From positions 1-47,365 of the forward strand of contig NZ_JACJHY010000040.1 in NCBI RefSeq assembly GCF_014138625.1: a stretch of DNA of 47,365 bases, given 5' to 3'. This document shows, piece after piece, positions 20,970 to 26,199 of the stretch. Source of the DNA: Aminobacter ciceronei. Lineage in GTDB: Bacteria > Pseudomonadota > Alphaproteobacteria > Rhizobiales > Rhizobiaceae. Both the position numbers and the translations under genes were made by a program. The notes under the pieces are model-generated. The model saw only the letters and a program-made list of their open reading frames with translations. It had not been told where the DNA came from and ran no database searches. Each line of letters begins with the position of its first letter. Position 1 is the first letter of the stretch.

Positions 20970-21154
20970 GCCGTCGTCTTAGACCTATTCGGGATGATGT
21001 GTCAGCCCGTGTTGTCCGCAGATGCAGCGCCAGGCAACCCTCGTTCCTCTGCCGAACGTCCAACGTCGCATTGACAGCGTAGGCAAAGTTCATACGCTCG
21101 CCGCTCCACACAGTCGGCAACGAGGTGCCACCGCCAAAAGGGAGGTGCGTACCG

Positions 21155-22147
21155 ATGACGAAATTCACCCGCCGCATGACATTGGCCCTCGGGCTTTCCG
21201 CCGCTTCGCTGCTGGCCTTGGCGCCGCAGGCCATAGCCCAGAAATTCCCGGACCGGACGGTGACCCTGGTGGTGCCCTTGCCGCCGGCGGCTCGACCGAT
21301 GTCGTCGCCCGCATCATCGAGCAGAAGATGTCCGATGATCTCGGCCAGCAGGTCATCGTCGAGAATGTCGAGGGTGCCGGCGGCAACATCGGCGCCGACC
21401 GTGTCGCCCGCGCCGAACCGGATGGCTACACCATCCTGATGGGCACGGTTGCCACGCACGCGCTCAACCCCGCTCATCCTCAAGACCAAGCCCTACGATC
21501 CGGAAAAGGATTTTACCCCTGTCTCGCTGCTTGTCGTCGTGCCCAATGTGCTCGTCGTCAACCCGCAGCTGTCGGTCAACAACGTGCAGGAGCTGATCGC
21601 GCTGTTGAAGGCCGAGCCCGACAAATATGCCTATGCCTCGTCAGGCAACGGCACGCCGCTGCATCTGTCAGGCGAACTGTTCAAGGCAATGGCCGGCGTC
21701 GGCATCCAGCACATTCCCGACAAGGGTGCTGGTCCGGCGCTGAACGACGTCGTCGGCAACCAAGTGCCGATCATGTTCGACAATCTGCCGTCCTCGTCCT
21801 CGCACATCAAGGGCGGCACGCTGAAGGCCTGGGCGTCACCACGGCCGAGCGGGCGCCGTCCTTCCCCGACGTACCGACCATCGCCGAAGCCGGCGTGCCG
21901 GGCTATGAGACCTATACCTGGAACGCGCTGTTTGCGCCCGCCGGCACGCCGAAGGAGGTTGTCGATCGCCTGAATGCCTCGGCCAACGAGGCGATGACCG
22001 ACCCGGCCGTCATCGTAGACGGAGCTGGCCGCCGTGCAGTTGTGACAACCGAAGTGCTTCAGTCGGGTATCGACGTCATCGGCATCGAGGCACAGCGCTG
22101 TCGTCCGCGAGCACTCCGAAGCGGATGCCGGCGCTCAGAACAGATAA
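21155..22147 (+). pseudogene. Frameshifted TctC/Bug-family solute-binding protein
   Basis: Remains of an exported tripartite tricarboxylate transporter binding protein. A signal peptide (TRRMTLALGLSAASLLALAPQAIAQ) and an excellent ribosome site (AAAGGGAGGTG) are intact. The conserved parts then appear in changing frames: FPDRTVTLVVP; then GGSTDVVARIIEQKMSDDLG to VATHALNP; then LILKTKPYDPEKDFTPVSLL to GGTLKA; then GVTTAERAPSFPDVPTIAEAG to DPAVI. The breaks fit one deletion near 21279, one insertion in CCCC 21468-21471 and one deletion near 21830. The C-terminal 120 bp are further scrambled, ending at 22147. No TctA or TctB is present. Either decayed or affected by sequence errors. Confidence 0.82.
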
Positions 22148-22457
22148 TCCGTTCAGCGGCTTGCCCGGAATTTCTACGATCCTGATTCACTGCCACTCTT
22201 CATATGACGGCGCATGTCGCGGACGTATCGCACACATCGCCCCTCTGTACAGCTGTGCTTCTCAACCGGTTGCGCCGCAAGGCTCGGGCATTTCTCTCTC
22301 GCATGATCATCGCCCGCAACTCGCCTCGCCACAGGATTATTGAGTCATCGCGTCAGTTTAGGTCCATCGGCTATCGATCAGATTCAGCTTGTACGCGGCC
22401 ATTTGCAAGAGCATGATGCAAATCATTCGCATTTGCAAATGGCTTGGGATGGTTGAA
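22148..22457 (+). promoter_or_regulatory. Oxidase-ZIP promoter region with TGCAAAT palindromes
   Basis: This 310-bp gap has no gene. Its right end contains a perfect dyad TGCAAAT-N7-ATTTGCA (22417-22437), a further ATTTGCA (22401-22407) and the self-complementary ATTTGCAAAT (22431-22440). TGCAAAT-type dyads resemble operators of Fur-superfamily metal regulators in rhizobia (Mur in particular, from memory). They sit 17-57 bp before the oxidase start, a position fit for repression by metal. The left part shows nothing recognisable. Confidence 0.55.
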
Positions 22458-23600
22458 ATGCCGACATGGTTTGGGGAGCGGCTCAGCCGCAGGCTGGTGC
22501 TGGCAGGCGGCATCTGCACTGCGGGGGCAACGGCTGCAGGCGTCACAGCAGCGGTGGGGCAGGCGTCCCATGATGGCCATGCGGCCGGTGCCGCTCGGCC
22601 GCCTTCGAGCACTGACGCCTATCCGGCTCCGGCAGGTGACCATAGCGGCGCCCATGGCGCGATGGTCACCGTCGGCGAGGTCGACAGTGCCCGCAACGGC
22701 TTCGATCCGGCCAAGATGCTGACCGATTGGGATGTCGGCACGACATCAACCTTACCTGACGGGCGCACGCTCAGGACCTTCGAGATCGTTGCCGAAGACA
22801 AGGAAATCGAGATCGCGCCAGGCGTGATGTTCCCGGCCTGGACCTACAATGGCCGCGTTCCCGGCCCGGCCCTGCGCGCCACCGAAGGCGAGCGCCTGCG
22901 CATCGTGTTCAAGAACTACGGCTCGCATCCGCATTCGATGCACTTCCACGGCATCCACGCCGCGCGCATGGACGGCGTGCCGGGTGCCGGCCTGATCAAT
23001 CCCGGCGATGAGTTCATCTACGAGTTCGACGCCAAGCCGTTCGGCTGCCATCTCTATCATTGTCACGCGCTGCCGCTGAAGCGGCACATCCACAAGGGCA
23101 TGTACGGCGCCTTCGTCATCGATCCCGATCCGACGCGCCACCCTGAGCAGGCCGATGTCGCCCGTTCGCGGCTCTACGGCTCGCCGGAGAATGCCGGCTG
23201 GCAGGAATTCGTCATGGTGATGAATGCCTTCGACACCAACTTTGACGGCGAGAACGAGTTTTATGCCGTCAACACGGTGGCGCACACCTACATGAACACG
23301 CCGATCCGCATCGCCAGGAACAAGCCGGTGCGGATCTACCTGATCAATGTCGTCGAGTTCGACCCGATCAATTCGTTTCACCTGCATGCCAATTTCTTCG
23401 ATTATTTCGACCAGGGCACGACGTTGACGCCAACGCTGAGGACCGTCGACCTGATCACCCAGTGCCAGGCCCAGCGCGGCATCATCGAGTTCACCTTCGC
23501 CGAGCATGAGACCGGTCTCTACATGTTCCATCCGCACCAGTCGGAGTTTACCGAGCTGGGCTGGGTCGGCATGTTCGACGTCGTGGAGGACGTGGCATGA
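22458..23600 (+). CDS. Two-domain multicopper oxidase, Tat-type export signal
   Basis: A protein of about 380 residues starting at ATG 22458 (open frame from 22389). The N-terminus has SRRLVLAGG followed by a hydrophobic stretch, a Tat-like signal, and then a His-rich region (about 36-67). Copper motifs: HPHSMHFHGIH (about 157-167) and HLYHCHALPLKRHIHKGMYG (about 198-217) in the first cupredoxin domain, HLHANFF (about 306) and HPHQSEF (about 356) in the second. The type-1 Cys-His-Met set lies in the first domain and is absent from the second, as in the so-called type C two-domain oxidases. Its stop overlaps the ATG of the ZIP transporter by four bases, implying translational coupling. A metal oxidase role such as ferroxidase is inferred. 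Confidence 0.88.
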   Translation: MPTWFGERLSRRLVLAGGICTAGATAAGVTAAVGQASHDGHAAGAARPPSSTDAYPAPAGDHSGAHGAMVTVGEVDSARNGFDPAKMLTDWDVGTTSTLPDGRTLRTFEIVAEDKEIEIAPGVMFPAWTYNGRVPGPALRATEGERLRIVFKNYGSHPHSMHFHGIHAARMDGVPGAGLINPGDEFIYEFDAKPFGCHLYHCHALPLKRHIHKGMYGAFVIDPDPTRHPEQADVARSRLYGSPENAGWQEFVMVMNAFDTNFDGENEFYAVNTVAHTYMNTPIRIARNKPVRIYLINVVEFDPINSFHLHANFFDYFDQGTTLTPTLRTVDLITQCQAQRGIIEFTFAEHETGLYMFHPHQSEFTELGWVGMFDVVEDVA

Positions 23601-24802
23601 GGGACGCGCCCTTTTCCGAGACCGAAGCCGAACTGCCGGGTTCTGCATCGCCACGCCGTGCGCTGTGGTGGATCATCCTGCCGCTGCTCGCCTTTGCCGC
23701 GGCCATTGCGGTTCTGGTTTCAATCAATCCGCTGGCGCGCTTCAACAACGGCACGCCACCGGTCGAGGACATTGCCTTCGAGCGCGTCATCCTCGGCAGC
23801 GACGGCATTCGCGTCCTGGTCCGCGCCGGCGGCTCGGAACCGATGACGATCGCCCAGGTCCAGGTCGACGATGCCTATTGGCAATTCACCCTGGATCCAC
23901 CAGGACCGTTGGCGCGAGGTTCTTCCGCCTGGATCCAGGTGCCGTTCCCCTGGGTGCTTGGCGAGGCGCATGCGATCAACCTGGTGACCAATACCGGTGC
24001 CACCTTCGCCCATGACATTCCGGTTGCGGTGGCAACACCCATTGCCACCAACTCCAGCCTGCTGTCGCAGGCGATCCTCGGCATCTTCGTCGGCGTCGTG
24101 CCGGTGACGATCGGCCTGATGTTCTATCCCGCCTTGCGCGGCGTCGGACGCAACGGCATGAACTTCCTCCTTGCCGTGACTGTCGGCCTGCTCGCTTTCC
24201 TGATGGTCGATGCCATTGGCGACGCCTTCGAGCTTGCGGCCGAATCGGCTGCAGTCTTCCAGGGCAACGCGATGGTGGTTCTGGCCGCTGCGGCGAGCTT
24301 CCTGATCCTGATGGGCATCGGTCGGCGCAACGGCGCGCCAAAGGGTTTGGTGCTCGCCACCTACATCGCCATCGGCATCGGCCTGCACAATTTCGGCGAG
24401 GGCTTGGCGATCGGCGCTGCGTTCGCGGCAGGTGCGGCCGGGCTTGGCACCTTCCTGGTGATCGGCTTCACCTTGCACAACGTAACCGAAGGCATCGGCA
24501 TCGCCGCACCCATCCTGCGCGAGCGCATCGCGCTCTGGACCTTCGCCTGGTTGACGCTGCTGGCCGGCGGGCCGGCGGTGCTGGGCCTGTGGATCGGCAG
24601 CCTGGCGTTTGCGCCGCAATGGTCGGCACTGGCGCTTGCCATCGGCGCCGGCGCGATACTTCAGGTCATCGTCGAGGTGACAGCCATGATGCGCCGCCGC
24701 GAAGGGCCTGAGGGCGATGGCCTGTTCAGCCCGGCAGTCATGTCGGGCCTCGCTGCCGGCGCCGGCTTCATGTACCTCACCGCGATGCTGGTGAAGATCT
24801 AG
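23597..24802 (+). CDS. ZIP-family metal transporter with extracytoplasmic N-terminal domain
   Basis: A 401-residue protein. One membrane helix (about 22-42) leads into a predicted extracytoplasmic beta-rich domain (about 50-150, including FERVILGSDGIRVLVRAGG and DDAYWQFTLDPPG). The ZIP core has about eight helices (about 155-400). The metal-binding pairs HNFGEGLAIG (helix 4) and HNVTEGIGIA (helix 5) are intact. ZIP proteins import divalent Zn, Fe or Mn. The added domain and the four-base overlap with the multicopper oxidase suggest that the oxidase hands over or changes the redox state of the metal. Substrate unknown. Confidence 0.87.
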   Translation: MRDAPFSETEAELPGSASPRRALWWIILPLLAFAAAIAVLVSINPLARFNNGTPPVEDIAFERVILGSDGIRVLVRAGGSEPMTIAQVQVDDAYWQFTLDPPGPLARGSSAWIQVPFPWVLGEAHAINLVTNTGATFAHDIPVAVATPIATNSSLLSQAILGIFVGVVPVTIGLMFYPALRGVGRNGMNFLLAVTVGLLAFLMVDAIGDAFELAAESAAVFQGNAMVVLAAAASFLILMGIGRRNGAPKGLVLATYIAIGIGLHNFGEGLAIGAAFAAGAAGLGTFLVIGFTLHNVTEGIGIAAPILRERIALWTFAWLTLLAGGPAVLGLWIGSLAFAPQWSALALAIGAGAILQVIVEVTAMMRRREGPEGDGLFSPAVMSGLAAGAGFMYLTAMLVKI

Positions 24803-24807
24803 AGGGG

Positions 24808-25113
24808 CTAGCCTCCGGAGGAGTCCAGCCCGAAGCCGCCAACCGGCTCGGTCTCGATGCTGGTGTCGAAGCCGGCGATGATCGGCATTGCCCGGCTAAT
24901 CGCCGCCTTGACCTCGGGCAGTTGCAACGAGGCCTTGTGGCTTGCGCTGCTGTCCCAGACCTCGGATATCCAGATCGCGTCGGCGTCGGCTGGATCCCTG
25001 GCGATGACATAGCTCAGGCATCCCGGCATGGCACTGGTGCTTCCAAGCAGGATGCCGAGCAGTTCGTCGCGCTTGCCGGCCTGGGCCCGCATCTTCCCTA
25101 TCAATCCGTACAT
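24808..25113 (-). CDS. Antibiotic-biosynthesis-monooxygenase (ABM) domain protein
   Basis: A 101-residue ferredoxin-like-fold protein with MYGLIGKMRAQAGKRDELLGIL, GCLSYVIARDPADADAIWISEVW and the C-terminal helix. This is the YgiN/ABM family, whose members include quinol monooxygenases and many of unknown role. The frame runs to 25197, but the ATG at 25113 matches the domain; there is no good ribosome site. It is convergent with the ZIP gene (5 bp apart). The 129 bp toward the CDF gene show nothing notable. Metal linkage is not implied. Confidence 0.82.
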   Translation of the reverse strand: MYGLIGKMRAQAGKRDELLGILLGSTSAMPGCLSYVIARDPADADAIWISEVWDSSASHKASLQLPEVKAAISRAMPIIAGFDTSIETEPVGGFGLDSSGG

Positions 25114-25242
25114 CTCAGGACTCGCATCGCTTCGTTGCCCGGATTGTGCTTGCGAGGCAGCACTTGTCCAGCCTGACGGCCGAGGTCCGCGGTTCAAGCC
25201 GACATCATCCTGACAAACGGGCCAGAGTTCAGCAAAGGTAGC

Positions 25243-26199
25243 TCAGGCGAAGGGAACCGCCACCGTGCCCTTGGGCAGCTTGGCTTCGTCATCCGGCTCG
25301 ACATGGATGATGATGCGCACGGAGGGAATTTCCTCCTTCAGCGCATCCTCGATGCGGTCGCAGATGACATGGCTTTCGCCGACGCTCATATCGGCGTCGA
25401 CGACGAGATGGAACTCGATGAAGGTGGCGCGGCCGGCAATGCGGGTCTTGAGGTCGTGAACCTCGATCGCGCCCTTGGAGTTGGCCGAGATGATGTCGCG
25501 GATGCGCATGTGGTCTTCCAGCTCGACGGCGCGGTCCATCAGCCCGTTCATCGACGAACTCATGACGTGCCAGCCCTGCCACAGGATGTTGAGCGCCACG
25601 ATGACCGCCAGCACCGGGTCGAGGATCGTCCAGCCGGTGGTAATTGCGCCGACCAGGCCGACAAGCACGCCGGCCGACGTCACCACGTCGGTCATGATGT
25701 GATGGCCGTCTGCGACCATCGCCGGCGAGCGCTCTGCGCGGCCGACGCGGATCAGCATGGTGGCCCAGATCGCATTCACCACGGCGGCAATACCGTTGAT
25801 GCCGAGGCCGAGCCAGGGCTGCTCGGGGTCCATCGGCGTGCCCCAGCTGCGCCATACCTCGAACAGGATCAGCAAGGCCGCGACGATGATCAGCACGCCT
25901 TCGAGCACGGCCGAGAAGTACTCGGCCTTGTGGTGGCCGTGCTGGTGGTCGAGATCGGCGGGCTTGTGGCTGACCTTGATTGCCCAGAAGGCGGCCATCG
26001 CAGCAACCACGTTGACGATCGATTCCAGCGCGTCCGAATAGAGCGCCACCGAACCCGTCAGCCACCAGGCGACGAATTTCAGCCCCATCACGGCGCCGCC
26101 GATGATGATCGACCAGAAAGCCAGTCTTGCGACGCGCTTCTTGGCCGATGTCGGCTGGCTGCCGCTGGCTGAAAATCCCTTCGTTTCGGTCTGGACCAT
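25243..26199 (-). CDS. Cation diffusion facilitator (CDF) efflux protein
   Basis: A 318-residue inner-membrane metal/proton antiporter with six helices (about 25-205) and a C-terminal cytoplasmic metallochaperone-like domain (about 215-300). The helix-5 metal ligands H-x3-D are present in DGHHIMTD. In helix 2, where FieF has D-x3-D, this protein has SDALES, so the second aspartate is replaced. GHHKAEYFSAVLEG forms the helix 3 region. CDFs of rhizobia export Zn, Fe, Co or Mn (EmfA for Mn). Specificity cannot be read with certainty. It lies downstream of trpE(G) in the same direction, across a 68-bp gap with a GC-rich hairpin. Confidence 0.9.
   Translation of the reverse strand: MVQTETKGFSASGSQPTSAKKRVARLAFWSIIIGGAVMGLKFVAWWLTGSVALYSDALESIVNVVAAMAAFWAIKVSHKPADLDHQHGHHKAEYFSAVLEGVLIIVAALLILFEVWRSWGTPMDPEQPWLGLGINGIAAVVNAIWATMLIRVGRAERSPAMVADGHHIMTDVVTSAGVLVGLVGAITTGWTILDPVLAVIVALNILWQGWHVMSSSMNGLMDRAVELEDHMRIRDIISANSKGAIEVHDLKTRIAGRATFIEFHLVVDADMSVGESHVICDRIEDALKEEIPSVRIIIHVEPDDEAKLPKGTVAVPFA

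Follow-up and report, generated by a model that had tools for sequence, protein, structure and literature searches.

Described oxidase-permease pairs and the Aminobacter locus

In yeast Fet3-Ftr1 and its bacterial counterparts, a copper oxidase is combined with a transition-metal carrier in the membrane; Fet3 has three cupredoxin domains. In the usual view of manganese uptake, the carriers transport Mn(II) without help, and we know of no redox partner of SitABCD or MntH, the manganese importers controlled by Mur or MntR. In ammonia-oxidising archaea, the genes for the oxidase MCO1 and a ZIP permease are linked (NVIE_000600/000590 in Nitrososphaera viennensis), and a role in copper has been proposed for them (PMC7785015). 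Here we describe two overlapping genes, for a two-domain multicopper oxidase and a ZIP-like metal carrier, in Aminobacter ciceronei (contig NZ_JACJHY010000040.1, positions 1 to 47,365; this whole stretch of 47,365 nucleotides is called the window). The oxidase-carrier pair is a real conserved unit. We favour, as fairly likely, the reading that it is a manganese-import unit in which the oxidase acts on the outer side of the carrier; we infer transport, metal, direction, docking and chemistry from the genes.

The pair resembles Fet3-Ftr1 in its composition, but here the permease is ZIP-like rather than Ftr1 (Pfam gives only Zip matches in the carrier, none of the Ftr1 type), the oxidase has two cupredoxin domains, and the regulation points to manganese. 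With SitABCD and MntH the pair has the type of operator in common, although the carriers are unrelated. The archaeal pair likewise consists of a two-domain multicopper oxidase gene adjoining a zinc/iron permease gene, and an oxidase-permease logic has been proposed for it; it differs in that the proposal concerns copper and that the available part of the source mentions no manganese regulator (PMC7785015), and we liken the two by description, no ammonia-oxidising archaeon being among the loci compared. Oxidase-ZIP pairing itself is therefore already in print. A search of the literature, largely without subscription papers, found no link between an oxidase, a ZIP carrier and manganese; nor did it turn up the manganese control, the extra domain of the carrier or the breadth of the pair. 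The features of the locus are as follows.

22389-22394, + strand: predicted -35 element TTGTAC, 17 bp from the -10 element; it starts slightly before the range given in the sequence-only reading of the window
22401-22407, + strand: outer half-site ATTTGCA of an extended dyad (22398-22443), from sequence inspection
22412-22417, + strand: predicted -10 element CATGAT, from promoter comparison among relatives
22417-22437, no strand assigned: putative Mur-type manganese operator TGCAAAT-N7-ATTTGCA, an exact palindrome whose first base is the last base of the predicted -10 element
22458-23600, + strand: two-domain multicopper oxidase, with type-1 copper in domain 1 and the signal LSRRLVLAGG of the Tat (twin-arginine translocation) type
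23597-24802, + strand: ZIP-like metal carrier of 401 aa, from the open reading frame, alignment and profile match to BbZIP
23726-24052, + strand: part of the carrier gene that codes for the extra domain (residues ~44-152), from alignment; the domain is probably outside the cell
24386-24400, + strand: carrier motif HNFGE (residues 264-268), aligned to BbZIP as the counterpart of its metal ligands in transmembrane segment 4 (TM4)
24476-24490, + strand: carrier motif HNVTE (residues 294-298), aligned to BbZIP as the counterpart of its TM5 metal site

Conservation of the oxidase-carrier pair

Scanning genomes with the carrier alignment yielded at least 532 confirmed relatives; the best 80, nearly all alphaproteobacterial, were kept. 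All 80 loci have an oxidase of the same subfamily directly upstream of the carrier gene; L076 and L101 (L numbers designate loci compared) are cut by contig ends. In an even draw of 142 alphaproteobacterial genomes, five contain the carrier with the extra domain; these five are also the ones with the oxidase subfamily (E 1e-80), and the two genes are adjacent in 5/5. Seven further genomes of this draw hold carriers that matched only from residue 165 on, and none of them has the oxidase subfamily. These results provide the conservation in other genomes that the sequence-only reading had named as its first check.

On plasmids, tblastn gave carrier matches in 147 records at E 1e-5 and, at E 1e-50, oxidase matches in 144, the leading genera of the two sets being almost identical; 74 of the 147 carrier-bearing records were typed conjugative, many of them from one genus. 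The pair is present in 27 of the 28 plasmid loci inspected. The exception, L025, has a carrier without the extra domain and no oxidase, yet a DtxR-type gene is adjacent; this locus was left out of the promoter and pair counts. The pair also occurs in other phyla and in haloarchaea. A draw across phyla, scoring at most four candidates per genome and so giving a lower bound, placed the carrier in at least 5 of 398 genomes at 1e-40, one of these being the remnant L212. Among cyanobacteria, carriers matching at E 1e-30 or below were found in 4 of 146 genomes, two of them broken. L212 holds at 1477-2037 a lone C-terminal carrier remnant without an oxidase, overlapping an MntR-like open reading frame on the opposite strand, and is probably a decayed copy. 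No intact carrier with the extra domain but without the oxidase was seen among the loci examined.

Distances among oxidases and among carriers are correlated (r 0.96 over 101 pairs, permutation maximum 0.30), a relation in which co-evolution and shared descent are not separated. The two genes overlap as NTGA in 85 of these 101 pairs, from which L076, L111 and L136-L140 were left out.

Putative manganese-type operators ahead of the pair

The sequence-only reading had seen TGCAAAT dyads just upstream of the oxidase gene, and these are indeed present as the exact palindrome at 22417-22437 and the outer ATTTGCA at 22401-22407; the outer half-site was not seen at the corresponding place in the relatives compared. 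The exact form TGCAAAT-N7-ATTTGCA is the sole copy in the 6.77-Mb genome. By chance, about one match with at most three mismatches is expected in the window (mean 1.10), and 22417-22437 has 0 mismatches. With at most two mismatches, the palindrome occurs at 8 places in the genome versus 0 in a backwards-read control (six of the eight, L005 and L007-L011, lay outside the closer look), and the other good copy is flanked by sitA and a Fur-family gene. A chance palindrome is ruled out by the genome-wide counts and by comparison with the promoters of relatives.

Among the 80 loci, a Mur-type or MntR-type box lies 5' of the oxidase gene in 73. The Mur-type box (at most three mismatches) is found in 29 promoters and the MntR-type box (TAGC-N4-GCTA, at most one mismatch) in 47, with both in 3; in Markov-shuffled controls, the two were found in 2.0% and 2.6% of regions, respectively. 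Loci L076 and L101, which have no readable promoter, were kept among the 80 as misses, as was the mis-anchored L075, and the weak Mur-type match of L082 (control 0.14) is included in the 29. A divergent MntR gene, detected with a profile built from four MntR genes of alphaproteobacterial plasmid loci, adjoins the pair in 34 of the 80 loci; 33 of these 34 have the MntR-type box and 0 the Mur-type box, which occurs in 29 of the 46 loci without an adjacent MntR gene. The two MntR genes scanned from alphaproteobacterial plasmid loci pass the NCBIfam NF008273 cut-off, and no MntR above cut-off was found in the Aminobacter genome itself.

The MntR-type box resembles what we take to be the E. coli MntR box. 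Of three genomes searched, two have the strict form of this box at a single place, the oxidase promoter, and the third has none; with one mismatch, it occurs at 11, 14 and 8 places in these genomes. At other genes, the Mur-type box lies upstream of sitA in 27 of 28 cases and of 11 of 27 Nramp genes, in line with the earlier guess that the TGCAAAT sites are Mur/Fur operators. In R. leguminosarum, Mur represses both sitABCD and mntH, which have mur boxes (PMC5575495); the letters of these boxes are given there in a figure and did not enter the comparison. A regulator box shared with a known manganese importer was thus found for the Mur type, and for the MntR type the sharing is weak.

Because a generic promoter scan gave no site at the oxidase promoter, the predicted promoter rests on comparison with relatives. 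A TTG lies exactly 28 nt 5' of the box in 10 of the 29 Mur-box promoters, versus an average of 0.62 per position, and a -35/-10 pair, the last base of which is the first base of the box at the 28-nt TTG spacing, is found at any spacing in 12 of the 29 (L003 and L082 were left out of the spacing comparison). The Mur-type box in the window covers the predicted transcription start. A box in this position would be a repressor site, and expression would therefore be expected at low manganese. These results suggest that the alphaproteobacterial members are very probably manganese-regulated, and the unit looks like a member of manganese-shortage regulons.

The same boxes bear on the possibility of a unit for manganese detoxification or oxidation, in which MntR or Mur would activate at high manganese, the oxidase would make insoluble oxide and the carrier would export manganese. 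Mn(II) oxidation has been described for MnxG, CotA and other multicopper oxidases (titles cited in PMC10367259), manganese efflux genes of B. subtilis are activated by MntR (PMC9240420), and one host of the pair is named Pseudaminobacter manganicus (L047). However, the box lies over the predicted start, a repressor position, in 12 of the 29 promoters, and the closest solved relative of the carrier is BbZIP. Because the operator motif is that of the uptake gene sitA (27/28), we favour import under shortage and regard detoxification as very unlikely. The sequence-only reading had left oxidase-assisted import and detoxification side by side; its interpretation is partly supported, in that the unit now stands as a conserved pair with a putative Mur-type operator and the import half is strengthened at the expense of the other.

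The oxidase and the carrier

The oxidase gene is likely 22458-23600, because the profile match begins at 22458, an ATG. Both cupredoxin domains exceed their Pfam cut-offs (Cu-oxidase_3, 3e-26, 92.3 versus 21 bits; second domain, Cu-oxidase_2, 1.5e-18, 67.4 versus 20.4 bits), and domain 1 carries the type-1 copper set H-x44-C-x7-H-x4-M (H156, C201, H209 and M214 in alignment numbering), with ligands assigned from the motif and from nitrite-reductase matches. This agrees with the two-domain oxidase described earlier from the sequence. The type-1 Cys-His and the eight His of the trinuclear site are invariant in a 10-member oxidase alignment, in which only the axial Met/Leu varies. Strict copper-ligand patterns match 99 of 107 oxidases, and the remaining 8 have identical ligands in slightly different surroundings. 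By pattern, the axial residue among the 107 is Met in 85 and Leu in 21, plus Met in L199, and 78 of the 107 have a Tat-like twin arginine. The NCBIfam cut-offs exclude identity with the copper-resistance oxidases CopA (88.5 versus 478.95 bits) and CueO (37.2 versus 525 bits) and the nitrite reductase NirK (76.2 versus 296.3 bits).

The closest solved sequences, 7rab/7rac and 3gdc (556.6 bits for 7rab and 338.4 bits for 3gdc), are likewise two-domain multicopper oxidases and are listed merely as 'multicopper oxidase'. We take 7rab to be a dodecamer from Marinithermus. The 288 residues of 3gdc are identical to a plasmid oxidase of Arthrobacter FB24 (L196, 3734-4864), which is flanked by an MntR-like gene and a ZIP carrier.

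The carrier ATG at 23597 and the oxidase end at 23600 give the overlap ATGA (23597-23600), as had been read from the sequence. We call the carrier ZIP-like because it does not reach the Pfam Zip gathering score (PF02535, 27.3 versus 35.1 bits); it is also below the ZupT cut-off. It is homologous to BbZIP/ZupT-type carriers by profile: a profile of ten relatives matches BbZIP (5tsa), its closest solved relative, at 8e-8 over residues 155-394. The TM4 and TM5 motifs are kept, and H264, N265 and E268 of HNFGE and H294, N295 and E298 of HNVTE are invariant in the ten-member alignment. The carrier differs from this type in its extra domain and, as read off the alignment, in having Asn and Ala where BbZIP has D208 and E240.

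The additional N-terminal domain of about 100 residues claimed by the sequence-only reading corresponds to residues ~44-152. It is common to homologues from alphaproteobacteria to haloarchaea, being present in the ten aligned members from several phyla, so that the proposed check on syntenic homologues also came out in its favour. A basic stretch precedes the first helix, which suggests that the domain is extracytoplasmic. No Pfam family matched the extra domain of the window's carrier. Among ten members, three families matched weakly in one member each (best, archaebacterial flagellin at 0.022), and the domain profile gave a weak match in the PDB to a flagellin chain (8fk7, E 0.0076).

The metal site is relevant to a variant of manganese import in which the carrier takes in Mn(II) unaided and the oxidase only keeps competing Fe(II) or Cu(I) away from the carrier mouth. 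Divalent ions are the usual substrates of ZIP carriers, those of the ZupT type have a broad metal specificity, and the main metal-site residues H264, N265, E268 and E298 are kept. Against this stands the lack, in the loci examined, of any intact extra-domain carrier without an oxidase, which suggests, without proving it, more than an accessory role for the enzyme. We consider this variant rather unlikely.

Manganese import weighed against copper handling

Manganese import by the pair is probable, and we lean modestly towards the oxidase acting directly with the carrier, a view divided between hand-over of the metal and removal of competing metals. In the proposed mechanism, Mn(II)-loaded Mur, a repressor of the Fur family, would occupy 22417-22437 and keep the promoter shut, and falling manganese would cause oxidase and carrier to be made together. 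The oxidase would be exported, probably via the Tat route, and would act, probably via the extra domain, on the outer side of the carrier. Most likely a metal would be oxidised at the carrier mouth: either manganese itself, which would then be handed over following the logic of Fet3-Ftr1, or Fe(II)/Cu(I) that competes with it, leaving manganese as the only metal taken by the carrier. Because no intact extra-domain carrier lacked the oxidase, we lean slightly to hand-over. If the reading is true, manganese nutrition would be tied to copper and oxygen, a function would be suggested for the solved oxidase 3gdc, and the labels 'zinc transporter ZupT' and 'copper oxidase' on some of these genes would need correcting. 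The unit may be an overlooked manganese uptake route needing a copper enzyme. The reading is testable in laboratory rhizobia, and the pair is frequent on plasmids.

A DtxR/MntR-type gene is near the pair in 14 of the 27 plasmid pair loci (alphaproteobacteria 4/4, Deinococcus 2/2, Actinobacteria 4/7 and haloarchaea 4/6), and one Deinococcus pair lies beside an Nramp gene. Five regulators from outside the alphaproteobacteria score higher with the manganese model than with the iron model, both scores being under the cut-offs.

Several observations weigh against manganese import. The -35/-10 arrangement is missing in 17 of the 29 Mur-box promoters. Neither box is present in 7 of the 80 loci, two of them without a readable promoter; both patterns miss L032, L057, L072 and L106 among the 80, as well as L019, L021, L022 and L023. 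The MntR-type pattern was derived from these same promoters, and with at most one mismatch it precedes only 3 of 27 Nramp genes. No MntR-type gene was found in the inspected stretch of the cyanobacterial (0/5) and Bacillota (0/3) plasmid loci. Transport, metal and expression are read here from genes and sequences, and induction by manganese shortage is what we infer, because MntR can also activate export genes. Moreover, the pair does not fill a gap, because a SitA orthologue (at least 60% identity, a threshold of our own choice) or an Nramp gene is already present in 47 of 49 pair-bearing genomes. A role as sole manganese importer is not supported, since only 2 of the 49, those of Stappia albiluteola (L055) and Roseovarius nubinhibens (L089), have neither; this survey, planned for 52 isolates, from which L097, L104, L084 and L091 were left out, covered SitA and Nramp among manganese carriers.

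Also on this side are copper-handling genes, encoding SCO, PCu(A)C, CopC/CopD, CopZ or another multicopper oxidase, in at least 11 of the 27 plasmid pair loci (flanks of 4 to 8 kb), together with the modest rise of the linked MCO1 and permease genes of N. viennensis under copper limitation (PMC7785015). They fit a copper unit, in which the oxidase would convert Cu(I) to Cu(II) and the carrier would import or clear copper, or a simple supply of copper. We judge the copper unit improbable: manganese-regulator-type boxes stand at 73 of the 80 promoters, MntR-type neighbours are frequent (34/80 loci and 14/27 plasmid loci), and the copper-handling neighbours may mean metal islands or copper supply for the oxidase.

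Other genes near the pair

Third genes differ between lineages outside the alphaproteobacteria. A Rieske gene is near the pair in 5 of the 27 plasmid loci (two cyanobacteria and three Actinobacteria), a plastocyanin gene in 5 of 6 haloarchaeal loci and a TatA gene in 3 of 3 Bacillota loci. The Rieske [2Fe-2S] genes lie behind the carrier (L019, 6086-6520; L022, 6053-6472; L116, 5235-5549; L198, 6163-6588; L199, 6153-6434), and no MntR-type gene was found in the inspected stretch of these five loci. In Bacillota, tatA lies behind the pair (L021, 6075-6293; L113, 5075-5251; L200, 6640-7603, the last also with tatC). Such genes give a hint of a redox partner and of an oxidase exported through Tat. 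A fuller version of manganese import, which we find doubtful, is a copper-dependent importer in bacteria and haloarchaea whose oxidase, docked on the extra domain, would turn Mn(II) into Mn(III) for the ZIP-like carrier and whose redox partner in some lineages would be a Rieske protein or plastocyanin.

On a Halorubrum plasmid (L109, 5722-7163), a TMEM165/GDT1-family gene and a second DtxR-type regulator are beside the pair, perhaps forming a manganese island. In the window, a TctC-type tricarboxylate receptor gene, seemingly broken over several frames, lies just upstream of the pair at 21125-22140 (PF03401, 3e-29, 21449-21973). About 440 bp past the carrier is a cation-diffusion-facilitator efflux gene on the minus strand (25246-26199; PF01545, 1.4e-41), and the gene of a small ABM-domain protein (24808-25197, minus strand; PF03992) faces the carrier gene.

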